Below are positions 467 to 19,975 of a stretch of DNA of 20,436 bases, one piece after another. The stretch lies in IMG/VR virus record IMGVR_UViG_3300046011_001679, positions 1 through 20,436 of that record, one strand, 5' to 3'. This DNA comes from a virus. The notes under the pieces are model-generated. The model was not told the DNA's origin and ran no database searches. It was given only the letters and a program-made list of their open reading frames with translations. The translations under genes were made by a program, and so were the position numbers. The number at the start of each line of letters is the position of its first letter. Position 1 is the stretch's first letter.

Positions 467-707
467 GTCGACTGGTTGGGCCCACTGGCTGGGTGCGGAC
501 CCCACCACTTCCGCAACTGCAGGGGGCGGTACCGGGCCAGCGTCCTCTGTGGCTGCGTGGGCTTGCGCAGGCTGCACTTTGAGGGGTGGGTGGCTACCCT
601 AGGACCTTTTCCGCCCGAAATCGTTTATACGCGATCCTGGAGCGTTACAGAGGGTGCCCCTGTTTGGGCCCATTCTAGGGCGGGTACACTCGCACTTTGG
701 GGTAAGC
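467..707. other. Non-coding stretch before the zinc-finger genes
   Basis: No repeat, RNA gene or convincing ORF was found here. Short ORFs in several frames have no recognisable protein content. An AT-richer patch near 616-630 (TCGTTTATACGCGAT) could belong to a promoter, but no paired -35 element at normal spacing is visible. The stretch ends with a GTACACTCGC motif (684-693) and a weak GGGG ribosome-binding candidate just before the ATG at 708. Confidence 0.5.
684..693 (+). promoter_or_regulatory. GTACACTCGC motif, 14 bases upstream of ATG
   Basis: This 10-mer lies exactly 14 bases before the start codon at 708. The same 10-mer with the same 14-base spacing precedes the start codons at 995 (plus strand) and 19975 (minus strand). 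The copy at 971 is explained by tandem duplication; the one at 19999-19990 is independent. Function is unknown: a phage promoter element or a translation signal are both possible. Confidence 0.35.
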
Positions 708-998
708 ATGACCATTCATGTCTGCCCTAAGTGTTCTGGTAGTACGGGTGGGGGCTTCGTAACTGCCAACCAAGTGCTGTGCAACACTTGCCGCAAGACG
801 CACCGTCGATGCCCAGACTGCGGACGGATTCTGCGACAACGGAGCTTCTCAAACCTCGGCATCTACTGCACTACGTGCAGTAAGGTGAGAGAGAAGAGCT
901 TGCGAAGACTTCGAGCTGAAGGGCGTGCCCGTAGCGGAGTTCAGACCCCCGTTCCAGGCTCCCCAACAAAGTACACTCGCACCCCCGGACAATCATGA
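708..998 (+). CDS. Small zinc-finger protein, upstream paralogue
   Basis: A 96-residue basic protein with two four-cysteine modules: C6/C9 with C25/C28, and C35/C38 with C54/C57, followed by a basic Arg/Lys-rich tail. The second module (CPDC ... SF ... YCTTC) resembles zinc fingers found at the N-terminus of phage endonuclease VII/HNH-type proteins, but no HNH catalytic motif follows. A nucleic-acid-binding role is inferred. The ATG at 708 is preferred over an in-frame upstream start at 654, because homology with the next gene begins at 708 and a GGGG precedes it. It is encoded against the late genes and is joined to its paralogue by an ATGA overlap, which suggests translational coupling. The exact function is not recognised. 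Confidence 0.8.
   Translation: MTIHVCPKCSGSTGGGFVTANQVLCNTCRKTHRRCPDCGRILRQRSFSNLGIYCTTCSKVREKSLRRLRAEGRARSGVQTPVPGSPTKYTRTPGQS
971..980 (+). promoter_or_regulatory. GTACACTCGC motif, second copy
   Basis: Duplicated copy of the element at 684-693. It is inside the 3' end of the first zinc-finger gene and 14 bases before the ATG at 995, so any transcription or translation signal here is embedded in coding sequence. Confidence 0.35.
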
Positions 999-1678
999 CC
1001 ACGCCCACCCGTACCTGCCTCAAGTGCTCTGGAAGCACAGGCGGCGGCTTCGCAACCGCCAACCAAGTCCTGTGCAACATCTGCTCAACGACGCACCGTC
1101 GATGCTCGGATTGCAGACATGTTTTGCCCTTGCAGGACTTCAACAACCGCAGCGGTTACTGCCGTATGTGTAAGTCGGTCAGATCTACAAAGTCGCAAAG
1201 GGCTAAGGCGGGCAACTGTACCCAGTGCAACGGTCCTAAGTCCAGTGTTACCACTAGGTTATGTCAACGGTGCCACATCGGCAACTTACGCGAAAGTCGA
1301 CGCCAAAAGATGGCCGCCAAGTCCAAAACACTCTCTGCCAAGACGATCAAGGCGGTTGAGACTGTCCTGAACGACCCCATGTTGGGCCTCCCCGCGGGCA
1401 CCAAAGCCATCCTCAAGATGGTTGCGGCGAGGGCTACAGCGGCCGCAGACCGGGAGGCTTCCCCGTCGGATCAATCGCGTGCTAACGAGGACGTAGACCG
1501 GGCAGTCGCTGAGACCCCCGACTTGACTGCAACCACGACGGCTGAGGCTCAGGAGGCTTCCCCGTTGGATCAATCGCGTGCTCAAGGAACTGCTCCAGCT
1601 CCTTCTCCCACAACTCTGCCTTTCGACGTGCAAGAGCCTCATCAACTGATGCTCCCATTCGCTCCACCCAGTAGTTGA
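995..1678 (+). CDS. Zinc-finger protein, downstream paralogue with long acidic/proline-containing tail
   Basis: A 227-residue protein. Three four-cysteine modules are visible: C8/C11 with C27/C30, C37/C40 with C56/C59, and an extra one absent from the paralogue, C75/C78 with C90/C93. A basic segment (about 94-125) and a low-complexity tail follow, with two EASPxDQSRA repeats (around residues 154 and 187). Near the C-terminus is QLMLPF (217-222), which resembles bacterial beta-clamp-binding peptides such as QLSLPL of Hda. The gene overlaps the 3' end of the large terminase gene antiparallel by 197 bp (1482-1678), so the tail is overprinted on terminase sequence. DNA binding is inferred from the fingers; no catalytic motif is seen. 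The fingers are firm as a real gene; the tail is less certain because of the overlap. Confidence 0.75.
   Translation: MTTPTRTCLKCSGSTGGGFATANQVLCNICSTTHRRCSDCRHVLPLQDFNNRSGYCRMCKSVRSTKSQRAKAGNCTQCNGPKSSVTTRLCQRCHIGNLRESRRQKMAAKSKTLSAKTIKAVETVLNDPMLGLPAGTKAILKMVAARATAAADREASPSDQSRANEDVDRAVAETPDLTATTTAEAQEASPLDQSRAQGTAPAPSPTTLPFDVQEPHQLMLPFAPPSS
1453..1582. repeat. 31-bp direct repeat pair spanning the large terminase stop codon
   Basis: Copies at 1453-1483 and 1552-1582 differ at one base and are offset by 99 bp, so they stay in frame on both strands. On the plus strand they encode the EASPxDQSRA repeats of the zinc-finger protein. On the minus strand the right copy encodes HAIDPTGKPP in the terminase tail, and the left copy lies just after the terminase stop. 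The stop TAG (1484-1482) aligns with a GAG codon (1583-1581) in the other copy. Confidence 0.85.
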
Positions 1679-6600: not shown

Positions 6601-9600
6601 CGACGCAGATCAAGCAGGTCCTCGCTAGTGAGTGTACCTTTCTCAGAGCCCAGTTCGACCAGGCGCTTGGGCTTCCGAGGTTCACTCGGAGCTTCGGGTG
6701 CCTCCACCTTGGGCGGTTCGGGCGGCAGGAAGTCCTCAACCTTGTCTTCCATGGGAGGAAGTTCAGGCTCAGGCTCTTTCACAGGAGCGGGCTCCTCAAC
6801 CGCTGCGGCCGCAGGAGGCGTGCTCGGGGGCCCATCGGGACCCTTAGTTTCGCTGTTCCCCCCGGCCTCCTGAGTAGAAACAGGGGCTTCCGTGGCCTCA
6901 GGAGGCGTGCTCGGGGGCTCATCGGGACCCTTAGTTTCGCTGTTCCCCCCGGCCTCCTGAGTAGAAACAGGGGCTTCCGTGGCCTCAGCCTTCGGGGTCT
7001 TAGCCTTCGCAGAGACCTCAGCACCCTCCTCAGCCTGGGCAGCGAGCAGGCGCTCTTCCGCCCGCTGGAGTTCGTCAAACTGACGACGAGCACGCCCGGC
7101 GAACGCATCCATGTCGGTATCGTTCAACTCACCCGCTTCGACCTTGGCCTGGATCTCCATGCCCTCTTCCATCAGGGCCTTCCGACGCTCAGCGATCGAC
7201 TCAAGGGTGACCTTGGCCGAAGCCTCACGGCTCCGCTTGACCTGCAGGACAAGCTCAGGCTTGCTGTACTCCAGCTTGGCGAGCACGGCCTTCACGTCCT
7301 GCTCAGTGAGCTGGATGTCCGCGCCTGCCAGGGAGGACCCGCGGCCGCCCTTCGACATGCCCGCTCCAGCTTCCGTACGCTTAGCCTTGGCGACAACCTC
7401 ACCGGGGCGGGGCTTCCGAGTAGGGAAATCACCAGCCTCACCAGCCTCAGCGACCAGCGCATCCAGGTAGGCGTAGACCTTGTCCTGGACTTCGCGGGGT
7501 TCGTTCTCGAGGAAGTCCTCCACGAACGACCAGCCAGAGGTCTCACCAAGCTGGAGGCGTGACAGGGCACGCTGGTTCATCTCTTCCTGCTTGTCCAGGC
7601 CAAGCCCAACAATGCTCTTGTCGGCCTCCGCCATATCGCTGAGCATCTCCTTGCGCCGCCTGGAAGACAGAGTAGCAGAGCCGCCACCATCGTCCTCACT
7701 GGCGTTGCGGATGAACGTCCTGCTACCGTCCTCGTCGACGATCACTTCACCGAGGGACAGCGATTCCCTGGACGGCTGAGAGGGGCCCTTGGCCTCACCA
7801 ACCAGGAGTTCTTTAACAGCCTTCCGTTCAGCATCCAGGCGCGCCGTGAGCAGCTTCTCGGCGTCTTCCGTGACAGTCACACCCAGACGGCGGAGGTAAT
7901 TCTCAACGGCCTCAGCCTTGGCACCGCGGTTGTTTATGGCGACAACCATGGCGTAGATCACGTTGGCACCAGGCGGGTCGTTGGGCACCTTCACGTCGAC
8001 GGCGTTGTCGCCGCTGCCGTACTTGGGGTACTCCAGCGGAAAACCCGTAACGCGCTGCTGCCCATTGAGGGTGCGGGGGTAGGGGATGCTCGCAGCGAAG
8101 TCAGCACCGCGGAGACCCTGGCCATTGGCTTGCTCAGCGGCCTGGGAGATCGCGTCGAACTCTTCTTGGGTGACCTTGAAGGAGCGGGCGTAAGCCAGGT
8201 CCCCACGGCCCTTGAGGCGGGAGATCGAGGAGGCAGCTTGGCTCTTCCGACCGCCGAGGAAGTCCCCAACAATCGTGTCCAGATTCTTGCCGCCAAAGCG
8301 GGACCGCATCATGGACACGAAGTCCGAGAAGACCTCACGGATGCGGAGTAGGGTGTTCTTGATGCCGCCCCCCTGCATCGCCTTGAGCTTGGCCAGGCGG
8401 GACTCGGTCAGGTCAGTGGCGTTGGTGGCGAACCACTCGGCCGGGGAGATGAACTCATACTCGCCAGCTTCGACGATCTCGTCAATCGCGTCCTCGGTCT
8501 GAGCAGGGGTCATTGCCGCCTTCAATTGCTCGAAGCGACGAACCGCCCCAGGAGAGTTCTCAAAGTGAGCCTTCCTGGCTTCGACGAACTGGGTCGTGAT
8601 CTTCTTGGACTCAGCCGGGGTGAGGCGTCCTTCCAAGCTGTGCCAGACTTCGTGCATCAGGTCCTTGCGGATCCTCCCGAGCTGGAAGCTCTCGCTGAGC
8701 AGGCTGATGGTCTTGTAGCGGTAGTCGAAGTTGGAGGCACCAGGAGTGGTGGGCTCGAAGCGAACAGAGATGTCGTCAAACAGCTTCGGTCCGACTTTCG
8801 TGATGAAGGTCTCGAACATCTCGCGGTCGGCTCCCTCGAGCTGGGTCAGGGCACCCGTCTTGGAGACAATGTCCGACAGCTTGGTGTTGCCGTACACCTG
8901 CTCGAAGCGCGGAGCACGGCCCTCAGCGACGCGCAGGTCGTGAGCCTTACGGTGCATCTGCTTCGTGAGCAGGCCGTCAATGGCCTCCTCGTAGTAGGTC
9001 GTGGCGGCCTTGGCAGCCTCAGCCTGAGTGACGCCGCTGCGACGGAGCTTGTTGTACGTCTTGGTGACCTTGCTCGCATGGAACAGGAGGTCCAGAGGGA
9101 CACCGATGATACCACCCTCAGCCAGGTTCTTGAGGCGGCCCTCGAACTCGCTGTCGTCCTCGTCGGTCTCGAGGTAGCGGCTGACGTCGTTCTCAAAGGC
9201 AGTGCCCTTGACCAGGTCGCTCAGGCGGCCGCTCGATCCCTCGAACACGGTGAAGTCGACAAGTGCTCCCGCGGCCACGTCTCCAGCGATGGAACCGCTG
9301 CCAAGGAAGCGGCCAACCTTGCCGAGCTGACCGATCTTTCCAAGGCGAGTCAGGCCAACGTACGGTACGACGAACTGGGTCAGGCCCTCGATCAGGCCGC
9401 CACTGATCGTGGAGCTTTCCCCGAGCAGGCGCTTGTCGTAGTTGGGCAGAGCATCGCCAACGACAGTGTCAGCCAGACCGTAGACAGACTTGATCGCCCC
9501 CTCGAGGCCCCGAACAGGAGCAAAGAGGTTGTCTAGAGTCAGGTCGGTGTAGTCTTTGGTGCTGAAGCCTCCACCCGTCTCGGGGGCACTCGGAGCCTCT

Positions 9601-13392: not shown

Positions 13393-16139
13393 GGGGTGTT
13401 GTTGGTGATGGTTACGGTGAATTCGTCGTTCCTGGCAAAGACCGGGAACCTGTACTGACCTTGGTCCAACTTGACCAGGGCGTTGCCGCCGCTGTTCCCC
13501 AGCGTTCCAGAGAACAGCATAGTTGATGCCGTCTCGCTGTCAATCTGGACGTCCACAGTGAAGTGGTTGGTGTTGACGTAGCGGATGGTGCCCCACTTAA
13601 CCTGGTAGCGTCCTTCAGCGATGGGGATTCGACCACCGTTGGTAGCTTCCTCACGGAGGTCGGCTTTACCAAACTGGTAACGCATGGTGTAGAGGCTACC
13701 AAGGATCATGCCCGTGGTGGCCGTCTGGTTGTTAGGTAGGCTGACCGTAGGGTTGGCGAACGGTAGGCCAGACACAGGGTCGGTCGTCTCGATGGTCGGG
13801 GAGGTGTAGCTCCCGATGGCGAACGTGATCACAGGGACGAACGGGGCATCCAGGTTGTACGACGCAGGCAGCGTTATGAAGGTTTTGTTTCCGGCAGGGT
13901 AGTACGTTTTGGTTGCGCTGTTCAGACTAATCTGGCGGTCCATCAGGGGAGCCGTGATCGTGCTGAAGTCGTCAGTGCCAAACTTGAAGTCCATGACCTC
14001 CAAGGCACTGGCGCTGTCCAGGCCCGCCATGATGTACAGCTTGTCACCGTAGAACTGGCAGCTCAGGACATCCCGGTCGAACGTGTACTTCGACCAGGCC
14101 GCTTGGAGCACGCGGTCCCCGTCGATGAAGTATTTGTAGATGAACAGTGACGTCGGCTCTGCCGAGCTGAGCACAACGATCACACGCTCGCTCTCGCAGG
14201 CAGTGATCGTGGTGACACCCTGGGGGATGTACCGCGGGATCTGCAGGCTGATGTTCTGGGCGATGTAGCTTCCCTTGGCAATGTCGCTGGGGTCAGCGAT
14301 CTGCTGGTACTCCATCAGCGAGGCCCACTCCTGTCGGTCTGACACGAAGTAGGCGTTCTTGCCCACGACAATCGGGGCGACAGCCGTGTTGATCGGGTAG
14401 CTCGTCACGAACTGGATGCTCGCCGTCTTGGGGGTCAAGATCGGGTCCCCGCTCACGACGAACTGGGCCTGCTCAGCGAACACCAGCAGGCGCTCATTGA
14501 GGGGCACCGCGTGCTGGAGCTTGGCAACCTCAGTGTGGGCCGCCTGGATGTCGATCACGTCGCTGTCGAGCAACTGCCGTACGGTCGTGCGGAAGAAGTT
14601 GCCGTAGATGCCTGCTTCGCTCATGCAGACGGAGCTTTCCGTCAGGATGCCAAAGCGGTTCTTGTGGAAGAAGATGTCGGTGATCGGCTTGCCAACGAAG
14701 CTGGGGGCGGGGTTGGTCTCAATGTCACCGGTCTGGCACTCCAGCCAGGGGTACTCCTCGAGCGAGAAGTAGATGGCGAAGGGGACAGTGGTGACGGTTC
14801 CCAGTGCATCGTCCTGCTTACGGATCAGGACCAGCGGCATCTTCTTGAGAGCAACGGGGCGGTCAGGCCCAACGGCCTCACGCCACTCGCCCTCCCCGAA
14901 GGTGTTGGGTACGGGGGTCACGAAGCGAACATAGAAGTCATCCTCGTTCGCTTCCACGGCTCCCTGCACTTGCAGGACGGTGCCGTCCAAGCATCGAGGA
15001 GGCAGCTCATCAAAGTTGTCCACGGTCAGGTGGTAGCCCTTGAGGGCGGTGTCCCCAACTGAGTCCGACGTGAAGATGCGGGTGATGTTGGCCGTACCAT
15101 TGGTGATCTTGAGCACGCTGCCCGAGCGGGTAACCGTCCAGCCGCCACCATCGAGCTGCGTCCGAAGCTGCTCAGCGATGTCGTCGGTCTTGATCGAGTT
15201 GTACTCGGTGCCAGTGGACTCAGTGATTACCACAGTCGAGGCGATCCCCGCTCCCGAGTTGAGGACGGTTGGGGTGAAGGACACACCAGCCACGTCGGCC
15301 TTGATCCGCAACACGGCCGTGATGCCGGGGTTGGGCTGAGAGGCCGTGACAATGTCCTCCATCGAGTCCCCGCCGACTGCGGAGTTAATCGCCGCAGCAA
15401 TGGAGGTCGCCACCTGAATCGGGGTAGGACTGCCGCTGACGGTGTAGGTCTTGGTGTAGCCCAAGACAGTGACCGTCCAGACAGTGCCGTTGGCTCCAGA
15501 CGAGCTGATCGTGGTCTGCCACTCTTCCTGGACAGGACCAGCCGCGGTGCCATTCCAGGTGGACACCTCAGCGGTCTTGCTCGTCGAGGCCGTGGACACT
15601 TCCACACGGTAGTTGGTCTTGTAGTTGCCCTGACGCACGTACAGGTACGCAGTCCGAGCATCCTGGGTGGGCGAGGGGTTGCCAGAGTCGACCTCGGGAA
15701 CAATCGACGTGTTCACCAGGAAGGTGTAGTCGTTCACCGTGGTCCACTTGAAGTCAGCCAGGGAGTCGTAGCTGGGCACCACGTAGGTGTTGATCAGGGC
15801 AGTAGGTCCCACCCCACCCGTGTCGCTGATGAAGATGGCATTGCCCTGCAGGTCCCATGCCCGAATGGTCGCGGAGGTCCCACCACTGGTGCTAACGACT
15901 CCGAGCAGGTAACGCTCAGTCGCGTCTCGATTGACCCAGTGGTAGGAGCCTCCAACGAAGTCGTCACTGGGATCGGTCTCCAGCCCGTTCAACCAGAGCG
16001 TGCCAGGACGCTTCTTGAGGCCTTCCTCAATCGTTCCGTAGGCGTTCTCCTGGATGCGACACTGACTCTCAAGACGGAGGTCGTCAGGTTGCTGAGACAC
16101 ACCGCCAACCAGGTTGGGCTGAGACTTAGCGAGGAGCAT
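13323..16139 (-). CDS. Tail tubular protein B / nozzle (T7 gp12-like)
   Basis: 938 residues (T7 gp12 is 794), forming the tail nozzle below the gp11 ring. The N-terminus has the family hallmark NLVGGVSQQPDDLR (residues 9-22) and GLKKRPGT (39-46). The middle is beta-rich with many Thr/Ser/Val repeats, and the extra length probably reflects an added beta domain between about residues 170 and 380. The start at 16139 overlaps the preceding stop as TAATG, so translation is probably coupled to the gp11-like gene. Its end overlaps the gp13-like gene. With no tail fibre found nearby, this enlarged nozzle could carry extra host-contact domains, but that is speculation. Confidence 0.95.
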   Translation of the reverse strand: MLLAKSQPNLVGGVSQQPDDLRLESQCRIQENAYGTIEEGLKKRPGTLWLNGLETDPSDDFVGGSYHWVNRDATERYLLGVVSTSGGTSATIRAWDLQGNAIFISDTGGVGPTALINTYVVPSYDSLADFKWTTVNDYTFLVNTSIVPEVDSGNPSPTQDARTAYLYVRQGNYKTNYRVEVSTASTSKTAEVSTWNGTAAGPVQEEWQTTISSSGANGTVWTVTVLGYTKTYTVSGSPTPIQVATSIAAAINSAVGGDSMEDIVTASQPNPGITAVLRIKADVAGVSFTPTVLNSGAGIASTVVITESTGTEYNSIKTDDIAEQLRTQLDGGGWTVTRSGSVLKITNGTANITRIFTSDSVGDTALKGYHLTVDNFDELPPRCLDGTVLQVQGAVEANEDDFYVRFVTPVPNTFGEGEWREAVGPDRPVALKKMPLVLIRKQDDALGTVTTVPFAIYFSLEEYPWLECQTGDIETNPAPSFVGKPITDIFFHKNRFGILTESSVCMSEAGIYGNFFRTTVRQLLDSDVIDIQAAHTEVAKLQHAVPLNERLLVFAEQAQFVVSGDPILTPKTASIQFVTSYPINTAVAPIVVGKNAYFVSDRQEWASLMEYQQIADPSDIAKGSYIAQNISLQIPRYIPQGVTTITACESERVIVVLSSAEPTSLFIYKYFIDGDRVLQAAWSKYTFDRDVLSCQFYGDKLYIMAGLDSASALEVMDFKFGTDDFSTITAPLMDRQISLNSATKTYYPAGNKTFITLPASYNLDAPFVPVITFAIGSYTSPTIETTDPVSGLPFANPTVSLPNNQTATTGMILGSLYTMRYQFGKADLREEATNGGRIPIAEGRYQVKWGTIRYVNTNHFTVDVQIDSETASTMLFSGTLGNSGGNALVKLDQGQYRFPVFARNDEFTVTITNNTPWPSTLIGAEWIAEFTTRFPRAQ

Positions 16140-16834: not shown

Positions 16835-17953
16835 CTAGGCCACGCTGATCGAAGTCCAGCGCATGGCGGCGTCAGGACGCAGCACCGCGTGACCCATGGC
16901 GTAGCGAGCGACGAGCAGGGTGCCCTGACGCTCAACGCTGTACTCAGTCTGGATGCTCAAGTCCTTGAGCTTGACAGTACCGATGGCCGACTTGTGGAAG
17001 GCGACCGCACAGATTTGAGTCAGGTTCACGTTGTACTTGGTCGTGTTCCCAGAGGGACCGATGCCAGAGATGTTGGTGCCGTCGCCGGTGCTAACGCCCA
17101 ACGTGCAGAGCTTCGAGTCTGACTGCGCAGCCTGCTGGACCGGGATGATGGTGAAGCCCGCGTACTTGATCATCATCTTCGGCTCCAACGCATTACCGTT
17201 GGTGCCTGCATTGACGTCGTTGTTGAGAATGATCAAGCCCGCGGTGTTCGTCTGGTTGTACAGACGGTAGAACAACTCGGGGCGGCAGATGATGTAGCGA
17301 TCAGAGGTCGGGATCTTGGCCTCGTCAAAGACACGCGCCGTGGCCCAGATGGCGTTGAAGAGGGCCGCACTCACCGTGGCGGTGGCCGAGTTCTGGAGGT
17401 TGAGGTCAACCAGCCACGAGCCCGCCGTAGAGCCAACGGTGCCGCTGTTGAAAGTAACATCAGGCAGAGCCGCGTAGTCGGTGTTGAAGGTGGCTCCATC
17501 GAAGGCGGTCAGAGCCCCGCTGGCCAGAGCCGCACAAGCGATCAAGCGACGATCCGCTTGGCGGGCCAGCACTTCGCCCATCTGCTTGGCGTACTCAGCA
17601 CGGGTCTCGTAGTGGATCATCCATTCCTGAATGTCAGGAATGAAGGTCGAGGCCAGCAGGATGTCGTCGACGGTGAGCTTGGCTTCGGCGTGCTTGAAGG
17701 CGGTGCCGTAGGCGTTGTTGTCGTCGAGCAGCGACTGACCAGGGGTGTGGTACTTGGCCGACGCGATGCCGATCTGAGGCATCGTGGTAACCTTGCCATT
17801 GGAGATCGTCTTGACCTTGCCAAGCTCGATCATTTGGTTGGACTGGTTGAAGGCCGTCATGACCTCGCCAGCGTACTGCTTGAGGAAGAGTGCGTCCGTT
17901 GCACCGCCAGCGTTTGCCTGGCCGGGGTTGGACAGAGTAGGGTTGTAACTCAT
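16835..17953 (-). CDS. Major capsid protein (T7 gp10-like)
   Basis: 372 residues (T7 gp10A is 345), forming the icosahedral shell. Recognisable family features include an N-terminal LFLKQYAGEVMTAFNQSN helix region, LTVDDILLASTFIPDIQEWM (about residues 93-112) for the E-loop/spine-helix area, and a C-terminal LLVARYAMGHAVLRPDAA. It stands alone between two regulatory-looking gaps: a 312-bp leader with hairpins upstream and a terminator-like hairpin downstream, consistent with strong separate control. The ATG at 17953 has no Shine-Dalgarno sequence in the preceding 20 bases. No slippery site giving a minor 10B form was identified. Confidence 0.96.
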   Translation of the reverse strand: MSYNPTLSNPGQANAGGATDALFLKQYAGEVMTAFNQSNQMIELGKVKTISNGKVTTMPQIGIASAKYHTPGQSLLDDNNAYGTAFKHAEAKLTVDDILLASTFIPDIQEWMIHYETRAEYAKQMGEVLARQADRRLIACAALASGALTAFDGATFNTDYAALPDVTFNSGTVGSTAGSWLVDLNLQNSATATVSAALFNAIWATARVFDEAKIPTSDRYIICRPELFYRLYNQTNTAGLIILNNDVNAGTNGNALEPKMMIKYAGFTIIPVQQAAQSDSKLCTLGVSTGDGTNISGIGPSGNTTKYNVNLTQICAVAFHKSAIGTVKLKDLSIQTEYSVERQGTLLVARYAMGHAVLRPDAAMRWTSISVA

Positions 17954-18119
17954 TTGAGTAACTAGAAATCGAACAGGTTGAAACGAACAGAAGCGATCAG
18001 ATCAGCCGTCCGTTCACACAAGGTTGTCGCTCGTAAGCGGCCAGGTCTCGCGGATTAGCAATCAGTCGTATGCGTGCGGGAGTGCTGCCAGTTGGGCGCG
18101 TCTCCGATGATCTAAAACA

Positions 18120-18158
18120 GTGAAGCCCGCACGGGGAACCATCCCGTGCAGGCCTCAC
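18120..18158 (-). terminator. Strong hairpin with a short U-tract, upstream of the capsid gene
   Basis: The arms pair over about 17 positions with two internal mismatches, around an approximately 4-base loop. The inner stem is GCACGGG/CCCGTGC. Read on the minus strand, the stem is followed by TGTTTTAGA, a short T-run, so it could terminate or attenuate transcription coming from the scaffold, propeller and spanin genes before the capsid gene. It could also be an RNA-processing site. Confidence 0.55.
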
Positions 18159-18165
18159 AAAAGCT

Positions 18166-18193
18166 GGTCCTAAGGTAGCGAATCTCGTCGGGT
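18166..18193 (+). other. 23S rRNA-like segment (17-base exact match to the conserved I-CeuI-site region)
   Basis: The plus strand reads GGTCCTAAGGTAGCGAA at 18166-18182, identical to the universally conserved 23S rRNA domain IV sequence that is also the core of the I-CeuI recognition site. After a shorter spacer (TCTC), GTCGGGT (18187-18193) matches the next conserved block of the rRNA. Weaker similarity may continue to about 18205. The late-gene mRNA (minus strand) would carry the complement. Flanks are not rRNA, so it is not a contaminating rRNA gene. Confidence 0.8.
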
Positions 18194-18211
18194 CAGCTTG
18201 TACCAATGCAG

Positions 18212-18244
18212 AAGGCCGCACCGGGGAGCCCCCAGCACGGCCTT
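18212..18244. other. Strong 15-bp hairpin just after the spanin gene
   Basis: Arms AAGGCCG and CGGCCTT extend inward through wobble pairs to a GGGG/CCCC stem closed by a 3-base loop. On the plus strand it is followed by TTGTTGTTGT, while the minus strand has no T-run after it. It may be an mRNA-stabilising or RNase III-type element at the 3' end of the spanin message, or a terminator for plus-strand transcription. Confidence 0.55.
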
Positions 18245-18265: not shown

Positions 18266-18649
18266 CTACGCCGTCTTACCCTTGGACTTCTCCAAGTCCT
18301 TCTTGCGAGTCGAGTTGCGGTAGAAGTTCAAAGCGACGGCTGCGAGAATGCCCACAAGACCACCCTCAGCAGACTCAGGGAGACCCGTGAGAGTGGCTTC
18401 GGTTCGCTCCTCAACCTCTTTCGCAATGGCTTCGACCGCCTCCTTGAACTCGGTCGACGCATCCTTGATCTCACCCTTGGCCTCGTCCACCTGCTCCTTC
18501 GTGGCAGTCGAGTCGGCAATCTTTTCGAGAGCCGCTTCGGTCTTCTGGTGGTACGTCTCTTGGACGTCAGCCAGTGCTCGGAGGTCGCCTGAGGTGATGC
18601 AGGCAGTCAGGGAGGTCAGACACAAGAGGGAGATCAGGATGTTCTTCAT
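18266..18649 (-). CDS. Probable unimolecular spanin (u-spanin)
   Basis: 127 residues. An N-terminal lipoprotein signal (MKNILISLLCLTSLTAC) has the lipobox LTAC with the modified cysteine at C17. A charged, probably coiled-coil periplasmic part (about 23-85) follows, then a short hydrophobic segment (about 97-110, GLVGILAAVALNFY) and a very basic tail. Outer-membrane lipoprotein at one end and inner-membrane anchor at the other is the topology of u-spanins such as T1 gp11 (131 residues), which fuse the two membranes at the last step of lysis. T7 instead uses a two-part Rz/Rz1 spanin beside the terminase, absent here. The hydrophobic segment is short for a membrane span, which is the main doubt. 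The start is 3 bp after the stop of the propeller gene. Confidence 0.72.
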   Translation of the reverse strand: MKNILISLLCLTSLTACITSGDLRALADVQETYHQKTEAALEKIADSTATKEQVDEAKGEIKDASTEFKEAVEAIAKEVEERTEATLTGLPESAEGGLVGILAAVALNFYRNSTRKKDLEKSKGKTA

Positions 18650-18652
18650 AGA

Positions 18653-19975
18653 TCAGGGCGTGATGTTGTAGAGGGTGATGTACGTGCCCAGGTTGCCTCC
18701 GGGAGGATTCCCGTAACGCAATGCCGCAGCACGGTTGGCAGGGTTGACTGCCAAGCGGTTGTTGAAGTGATCGCTGATCGACCAGTCCGTGGTGTAAGCG
18801 GGACCCCAGGTCGAACCCTGCTTGGTCCAGCAGGTGAGCTTGCCGTGAGTGCCCGCGATACGGGACATGGCAACCACCGTGGTGTCGTTCATGAACTTGA
18901 TGTCCGAGTAGAACGTGTAGGCGGCCAGACCCGTGATCGGGTACTGGACCAACGTCATGCCACTGGTGGCCAACGGCAAGGTCTGGCTGCTCAGGTCAAT
19001 CGTACCGAAGCCGCCGAGGTCAACCAGAGGGCTCACCAGACCCGTGAACAGCGTATTGCCGTCGGGGCTGATTGCCAAAGCCACGGGGTAGGTGCCGCCA
19101 GTGGTGAAGCCCTGGGTCTTCCACAAACCATGCTCGGTGGGAGCAGAGGGGTTGTAGTTCCAGTCGTAGAAGTTCGAGTGGTTGGCGTAGATCGTGGCAT
19201 TGCTGCCAATCACCGACATACGCACCGACACGTCACGGGCAGAACTAGCCAAGCCAGCCGAAGCGAAGCTCTGGCCCGCCGTGAAGCCCTCGAACAGGGT
19301 GGGGTACATCGAGCTTTGCGAGATCGCCGTGCTCGAATCATCGTCGATGTGGAACACGTAGTTGTAGTCCATGGCCTCCACGTACAGGGTGGTGCCGTCA
19401 GCCGAGAGGACCGACTGCAACGGCTGCGAAGTCACCTGGGTGAACTTCTCGCCGCCAATGAGGCCAGTCGCGGTATCACAAGTGTAGACGGTCAGGCCAT
19501 TAGTGCTGGTCCAACACCAACCAACAGCGATGCCGTTCTCACTCATGTGAGCGCCGAGCTTGTCACCAGCGTCCATCGTGACGGTGTAGGACGGGGTGCT
19601 CGAGGAAGCGCCCGCATCCGACCAGGCGAACATTCGGGTACGAATGGCACCACCGCTGACAGTGCGCTCCGCAGTCACGGCCACCAGGGCAGCCGTGTTC
19701 GCAGCAGCATCAACCTCAGCGGCGAGCATCTCGTAGCCCGCCTGCTTCGACCAGACAACACTGCCAGAGGCCAGGTTGTCCAGCAGAGTCACCTTGCCAG
19801 CAGACGAACCCGTGCCGCCCACGTTGGGGAAGGCCAGGAACATCGAAGCGCCCGCATCACCAACCGCATGGTCAGTGACACGGCCCTGCTGGTAGTAGGT
19901 GAAGATGGGACCGAACGACGACTGTGCGGTAGCCGTCGCGGTCAGAAGAAGAACAGAGAGGAAAGATTTGGTCAT
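18653..19975 (-). CDS. Secreted beta-propeller-like protein of unknown function
   Basis: 440 residues with a clear Sec signal peptide (MTKSFLSVLLLTATATA, likely cut at ATA|Q after residue 17). The rest is beta-rich with propeller-like blade turns: LSADGTTLYV (190-199), ISPDGNTLFTG (302-312) and several weaker repeats ending in short Tyr/Val strands. It resembles YVTN/lactonase-type or WD-like propellers in style, but no specific family or active site is recognised. It sits between scaffold and capsid, a place usually without extra genes in T7-like phages, and next to another envelope-targeted gene (the spanin). Possibilities are a host-envelope or extracellular factor (moron), a virion surface protein or a lysis helper. 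The signal peptide argues for export rather than cytoplasmic virion assembly. The start at 19975 follows a GTACACTCGC motif by 14 bases. Confidence 0.75.
   Translation of the reverse strand: MTKSFLSVLLLTATATAQSSFGPIFTYYQQGRVTDHAVGDAGASMFLAFPNVGGTGSSAGKVTLLDNLASGSVVWSKQAGYEMLAAEVDAAANTAALVAVTAERTVSGGAIRTRMFAWSDAGASSSTPSYTVTMDAGDKLGAHMSENGIAVGWCWTSTNGLTVYTCDTATGLIGGEKFTQVTSQPLQSVLSADGTTLYVEAMDYNYVFHIDDDSSTAISQSSMYPTLFEGFTAGQSFASAGLASSARDVSVRMSVIGSNATIYANHSNFYDWNYNPSAPTEHGLWKTQGFTTGGTYPVALAISPDGNTLFTGLVSPLVDLGGFGTIDLSSQTLPLATSGMTLVQYPITGLAAYTFYSDIKFMNDTTVVAMSRIAGTHGKLTCWTKQGSTWGPAYTTDWSISDHFNNRLAVNPANRAAALRYGNPPGGNLGTYITLYNITP

Follow-up and report, generated by a model that had tools for sequence, protein, structure and literature searches.

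The window analysed here, the entire stretch of 20,436 nucleotides, is a fragment of the genome of a T7-like phage, with a capsid gene (PHROG 267), a terminase and internal virion proteins. The element that is the subject of this analysis lies in noncoding DNA between the capsid gene and a small lipoprotein-like ORF, both encoded on the minus strand (Table 1). Read along that strand, the order is the stop codon of the lipoprotein-like ORF (18266), a hairpin, a small stem that includes the complement of two blocks of 23S rRNA, another hairpin followed by TGTTTTAG, a leader, and the capsid start codon. The sequence-only reading had placed the element between two strong hairpins in the leader of the capsid gene. 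Both hairpins are there, and so is the noncoding position beside the capsid gene; however, the hairpin on the capsid side, together with the adjoining T-run, resembles an intrinsic terminator, and because of this resemblance the element is probably located where the upstream transcript ends, at its 3' end, and is not simply a part of the capsid leader. The leader proper, downstream of that hairpin, is presumed to provide the capsid gene with a promoter and a ribosome-binding site of its own.

Table 1. Features in and around the intergenic region of the window
Feature	Positions	Strand	Basis
Major capsid gene (T7-like), downstream in late transcription	16835-17953	-	PHROG 267, E = 5.7e-62
Conserved 166-nt leader, from the terminator-like hairpin to the capsid start	17954-18119	-	About 99% identical in L025
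Strong hairpin followed by TGTTTTAG; terminator-like, 7 nt past the element	18120-18158	-	Terminator score 32.5; best on the plus strand 16.5
Small stem AAGCTG/CAGCTT around blocks 1 and 2	18161-18199	-	Sequence, folding
Block 1, complement of 23S 1921-1937 in minus-strand RNA; the plus strand reads as rRNA	18166-18182	-	17/17 identity to rrlB
Block 2, complement of 23S 1945-1951; GTCGGGT on the plus strand	18187-18193	-	Sequence, 23S alignment
Possible block 3, ACCAATG on the plus strand; CACCAATGGCG form also in L004/L019	18202-18208	-	Weak alone
Second strong hairpin, flanking the element opposite the first	18212-18244		Folding
Small lipoprotein-like ORF, upstream in late transcription	18266-18649	-	ORF without PHROG or Pfam match

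Several other features of the window deserve mention. A 440-aa ORF (18653-19975, minus strand), signal-like at its N-terminus and without a PHROG or Pfam match, is an insertion in the T7-like late operon, between the scaffold-like gene and the lipoprotein-like one. Beside the terminase, two successive ORFs (654-1678, plus strand) contain similar CxxC zinc-ribbon-like motifs, the second without a Pfam or PHROGs match. Two tandem repeats are present as well, one of 66 bp in two copies (75-206) and an in-frame one of 87 bp (6807-6988) within the 1988-aa internal virion protein.

On the plus strand, the element reads GGTCCTAAGGTAGCGAA, identical at 17 of 17 positions to nucleotides 1921-1937 of E. 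coli 23S rRNA (rrlB), then TCTC (18183-18186), then GTCGGGT, the counterpart of 23S 1945-1951, so that 4 nt separate the two blocks compared with 7 in 23S; both the identity and the shortened spacing had been described in the sequence-only reading and are confirmed by the alignment. The third, weaker block corresponds to ACGAATG in 23S. In E. coli numbering, H69 comprises nucleotides 1906-1924 and H71 nucleotides 1945-1961, and the element covers H70 together with the 3' strand of H69 and the 5' strand of H71. The 17-mer is the sole stretch of at least 15 bases that the window shares, on either strand, with E. coli 16S, 23S or 5S rRNA. That such a match would hardly arise by chance, as had been claimed, is borne out by 5000 shuffles of the intergenic region, in which the longest match to H69-H71 never exceeded 14 bases, and by the expectation of 0.05 matches in the window at 3 or fewer mismatches. 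The predicted duplex between the complement and 23S rRNA has an energy of -56.5 kcal/mol, compared with a mean of -34.8 and a minimum of -44.4 for shuffled sequences. A true rRNA gene or contamination was rejected given the noncoding context and the Rfam comparison of the window, in which no LSU rRNA or other family reached the gathering score. A protein-coding reading (PTRFATLGP, in a 74-aa ORF at 17997-18221) was likewise rejected, because the frame is not kept among the Guernsey-type copies of the element and the ORF crosses both hairpins.

Conservation among related phages, to which the sequence-only reading had pointed as a check, is evident: five more contigs, recovered from other samples and encoding near-identical capsid proteins, carry it intact, and a 92% relative (L025) retains it with one change within the 17-mer; for this reason an assembly artefact is unlikely. 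The 312-nt intergenic region of L025 shares 98.4% identity with that of the window, and the terminator-like hairpin is unchanged, whereas the capsid gene is 84% identical and the other genes 93.5-97%; divergence this low would have P = 1.6e-6 at the coding rate. In the same comparison, no stretch is more divergent than the capsid gene, which lies beside the most conserved stretch, as if this gene had been exchanged or were under diversifying selection. L005, L011 and L014 show about 106 differences, all in the tail gene at 13840-16139, the rest being nearly identical, which is a mosaic exchange of this gene. Among distant T7-like capsid relatives (L055-L077), the element was not found; a 14-mer in L062-L066 and L076 falls inside a 482-aa upstream ORF and was taken as a chance match.

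The recurrence of the element extends to named phages. A search of 50,697 phage records with 77 nt of E. coli 23S rRNA around H69-H71 returned 20 records with real 23S rRNA and 23 weak matches, the latter in Jilinvirus, Guernseyvirinae (TS33, AH01), Sextaecvirus and relatives, and Vibrio phages. The records with real host 23S rRNA are probably mislabelled or contaminated. Among the annotated weak matches, 19 of 20 lie outside annotated genes. The controls were the same query in reverse and three further conserved segments of rRNA; each yielded 1-8 weak matches, and all the annotated ones were within a CDS. When counted by group, matches were intergenic in 5 of 5 cases for the H69-H71 query versus 0 of 7 for the controls (Fisher P = 0.0013). 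The window intergenic region as a query adds Lysinibacillus phage LC76P1, and a Guernsey-type query adds Serratia phage MQ-4. The copy in Jilinvirus ep3 has two changes in the 16-base block. In Jilinvirus ECO1230-10, a 65-bp noncoding segment beside the element (L031:1076-1140) is 97% identical in Skatevirus phages of Salmonella (L048:601-665). In HeidiAbel (Bas97), a phage of E. coli K-12, the putative element is GGAACUUACCCGACAAGUGAUUCC, with what appears to be a CCCCGC...GCGGGG terminator.

Scans of IMG/VR with the 17-mer and with 23S 1943-1958 added further groups. Clustered by how similar the surrounding 6 kb of DNA are, the loci fall into 35 groups, 23 noncoding and 12 coding. The coding groups (for example, L080 and L133) are taken as chance matches; L010, L040 and L145, the last inside a spanin gene, were treated in the same way. 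The 23S segment at about 1907-1976 (H69-H71) thus recurs in the noncoding DNA of, at the upper estimate, some 20 mutually dissimilar phage groups; the estimate is an upper one because L082/L125, L090, L098, L101 and L145 contain the 16-mer only and might be chance matches, and about 15 groups have at least two 23S blocks or a terminator nearby. In the added groups, noncoding copies contain further 23S blocks, in 23S order: 1921-1938, 1944-1958 and GACCTGC in L018/L026; 1921-1937, then GCACCAATGGCGT, in L004/L019; 1943-1958, then CACGAATGGCGTA, in L088 and relatives; CCGTAAC, AGGTCC, 1943-1958 and GCACGAATGG in L143; the 1943-1958 block, a new hairpin, then CTGCACGAAT in L093/L115; and nearly all of 1921-1961 in L003/L130/L146. 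An Rfam scan of 17 related loci found no family other than tRNA. The genes next to the elements differ widely and include terminase-side genes, an ATP-dependent protease, ribonucleotide reductase, lysis genes, integrase and tRNA clusters. In the related contigs L015 (199-215) and L016 (motif on the minus strand), one flank is common and the other differs, with an extra gene in L015; the element of this pair is at a gene-exchange boundary. A match to 23S 2607-2621 on the other strand in L036/L041 is near the chance level.

Both gene direction and terminators set the two strands of the element apart. In 11 of the 23 noncoding groups, the rRNA-complementary strand has a strong terminator no more than about 110 nt downstream of the element, versus none of the 23 for the rRNA-like strand; none of the 12 coding groups has one. 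Neighbouring genes are co-directional with the complementary strand in 18 groups and with the rRNA-like strand in 2 (L003/L130/L146 and L101); in 2 more, they are convergent. The distance from the stop codon to the element is 0-26 nt in several groups (5 in L012, 14 in L016, 10 in L032, 26 in L036), and several elements are bounded by a stop codon on one side and a terminator on the other, as is typical of small RNAs that derive from a 3' UTR; for several groups, no terminator could be recognised, and in L088 and relatives, a start codon follows about 35 nt downstream. Folding energies are equal for both strands in Jilinvirus, and a wobble test (5 compatible versus 1 incompatible transition) is suggestive at most. 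Accessibility (0.53 for the antisense and 0.42 for the sense strand) was set aside because base composition alone could produce the difference.

Some enterobacterial phages combine the element with a complement of the 3' end of 16S rRNA, AGGAGGUGAUCC. In KA2-1 (Klebsiella), MQ-4 (Serratia) and Guernsey-type phages, this complement (AGGAGGTGATCC or shorter; 12 of 12 positions in KA2-1) is located between the anti-23S block and the terminator, and no start codon is found at a usable spacing from it in these phages. This second complement favours rRNA as the target. The window has no complement of the 16S 3' end and no match of 13 or more bases to E. coli 16S rRNA, and in a scan of bacterial genomes, a pattern combining the anti-23S with the anti-16S motif had no match.

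Given that the late genes of the window are on the minus strand, late RNA holds the 23S complement. The sequence itself, its recurrence, noncoding location and conservation, and the bias in strand and terminators are direct observations, and they seem best accounted for by an untranslated late phage RNA that would pair with H69-H71 of host 23S rRNA, a function to which we assign a probability of about 0.45. Such pairing was one of the options in the sequence-only reading and is the best supported of these, by the gene direction and terminator counts; expression of the RNA and its pairing are what we infer from them. The late transcript would exit the lipoprotein-like gene, form a hairpin, display the anti-23S blocks in the small stem-loop, and stop at the strong terminator-like hairpin ahead of the capsid leader. 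H69-H71 is part of the subunit interface and is buried in the intact 70S ribosome, so that access would be limited to some states; pairing could occur when this region is open, that is, in immature 50S particles or free 50S subunits. H69 and H71 are flexible in 50S intermediates with undocked H68 (PMC11260487). Pairing might then slow 50S maturation or subunit joining, and host ribosomes would be lowered late in infection. Synthetic peptide nucleic acids (PNAs) against helix 69 and against the mRNA-binding site of 16S rRNA inhibit the growth of E. coli (PMC7038079), and therefore, pairing at these two sites can act. That the phage RNA specifically inhibits host ribosomes is, nevertheless, only a tentative suggestion. 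We regard as similarly doubtful the broader scenario under which many unrelated phages would have independently evolved untranslated RNAs that lower host ribosomes via 23S H69-H71 and, in some cases, also the 16S 3' end. The L003/L130/L146 group, with its long 23S matches on a strand that reads as rRNA in the direction of the genes, is counter-evidence to the proposed pairing.

The same complement could act in cis, by holding or recycling ribosomal subunits on the phage's own mRNA, for example, capturing 50S subunits released at the upstream stop codon or raising translation of the next gene. The short distances to stop codons in L012, L016, L032 and L036 and to a start codon in L088 and relatives would be compatible with this possibility, and so would the proposed pairing of the T7 capsid-gene leader with 16S rRNA. 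In many groups, however, a terminator comes next and no further gene belongs to the same transcript, and in the window, the terminator-like hairpin separates the element from the capsid gene; we consider a cis-acting element unlikely. Were the opposite strand transcribed, an rRNA-like RNA imitating H69-H71 could serve as a decoy that binds an rRNA-modifying enzyme, a ribosome factor or a 23S-cutting toxin, a kind of mimicry that had also been proposed. What stands from that proposal is the conserved 23S block order, along with the near-complete 1921-1961 segment in gene direction in L003/L130/L146 and the two extra G-U pairs that the small stem gains on the plus strand of the window. Yet gene direction and terminators point to the complementary strand, and most copies lack the 3' strand of H71: the pairing of GUCGG with CCGAC is kept in L130/L146, and in most copies, the stem is broken just after GUUCC (GTTCC in DNA). 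Furthermore, in many groups, the rRNA-like strand is immediately preceded by a terminator hairpin, so that a promoter would hardly fit. All this makes a decoy rather improbable.

Still less probable is a feature acting at the DNA level, be it a relic or target of homing or of recombination with host rRNA operons, or the core of an integration site, all of which the sequence-only reading had entertained. Its identification of the 17-mer with the core of the I-CeuI site in 23S rRNA holds for the right half; the left half, TAACTATAAC, is absent from the window, where there is also no Rfam intron and no endonuclease match (PHROG, Pfam) in the adjoining ORFs. Jilinvirus copies do adjoin an integrase gene, but in the Guernseyvirinae and T7-like loci, no integrase adjoins the element, which occurs at many unrelated gene positions; moreover, the core is interrupted and falls inside 23S, not at a gene end. 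The window being a fragment, an integrase gene may still be present elsewhere in the genome. The interrupted blocks with swapped or inserted hairpins, the strand bias and the association with terminators also count against a feature at the DNA level, and homing or recombination would leave the strand bias unexplained. Least probable of all is a chance match or assembly artefact. Lone 16-17-mers do occur in collections this large, as the 12 coding groups and probably L010 illustrate, but 17 and 7 bases in the proper order go beyond what shuffling produced, the element is kept in independent contigs, and recurrence is seen for the H69-H71 region only, mainly between genes. The chance or artefact possibility considered in the sequence-only reading fails, since the element is conserved and recurrent.

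The antisense reading, if correct, would amount to a new viral way to act on the host ribosome, at a site that is difficult for the host to alter; it may shed light on the way in which translation is redirected by phages at late stages of infection and would identify H69-H71 as an accessible natural target. HeidiAbel, as a phage of E. coli K-12, offers a concrete, testable element. Whatever the mechanism, the fact that unrelated phages repeatedly carry one specific segment of rRNA in their untranslated regions requires explanation. In the literature searched, the coverage of which is incomplete so that an earlier description is possible, no RNA of phage or bacterial origin with complementarity to 23S rRNA came up, and a 2025 review on the small RNAs of phages makes no mention of rRNA (PMC12197685), which suggests that the antisense-rRNA pattern in phages has not been described previously.

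The pattern fits no family tested here; several known systems share parts of it. The I-CeuI site with its group I intron in 23S has the right half in common with the window; the left half, the intron and the endonuclease are not seen at the window element. The leader of T7 gene 10 contains the 'epsilon' sequence, for which pairing with 16S rRNA close to the start codon has been proposed. The window resembles this case in that a T7-like phage, a position near the capsid gene and a proposed pairing of phage mRNA with rRNA are involved, but the element matches 23S, is located about 210 nt from the capsid start, past the terminator-like hairpin, and no 16S complement is found near a start codon in the window. 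The growth-inhibiting antisense PNAs would address the same two rRNA regions as the phage elements (PMC7038079); they are synthetic, whereas the elements would be natural RNA. A further likeness is to terminator-ended, trans-acting small RNAs of bacteria and phages, which often derive from 3' UTRs: like the phage element, these are untranslated, with a stop codon before them and an intrinsic terminator after, here found directly downstream on the proposed RNA strand in the window as in the other terminator-bearing groups, and in both, the complementary stretch lies partly in a loop. The known small RNAs pair with mRNA or with other small RNAs, whereas the complement of the phage element is 23S and, in some phages, 16S rRNA.
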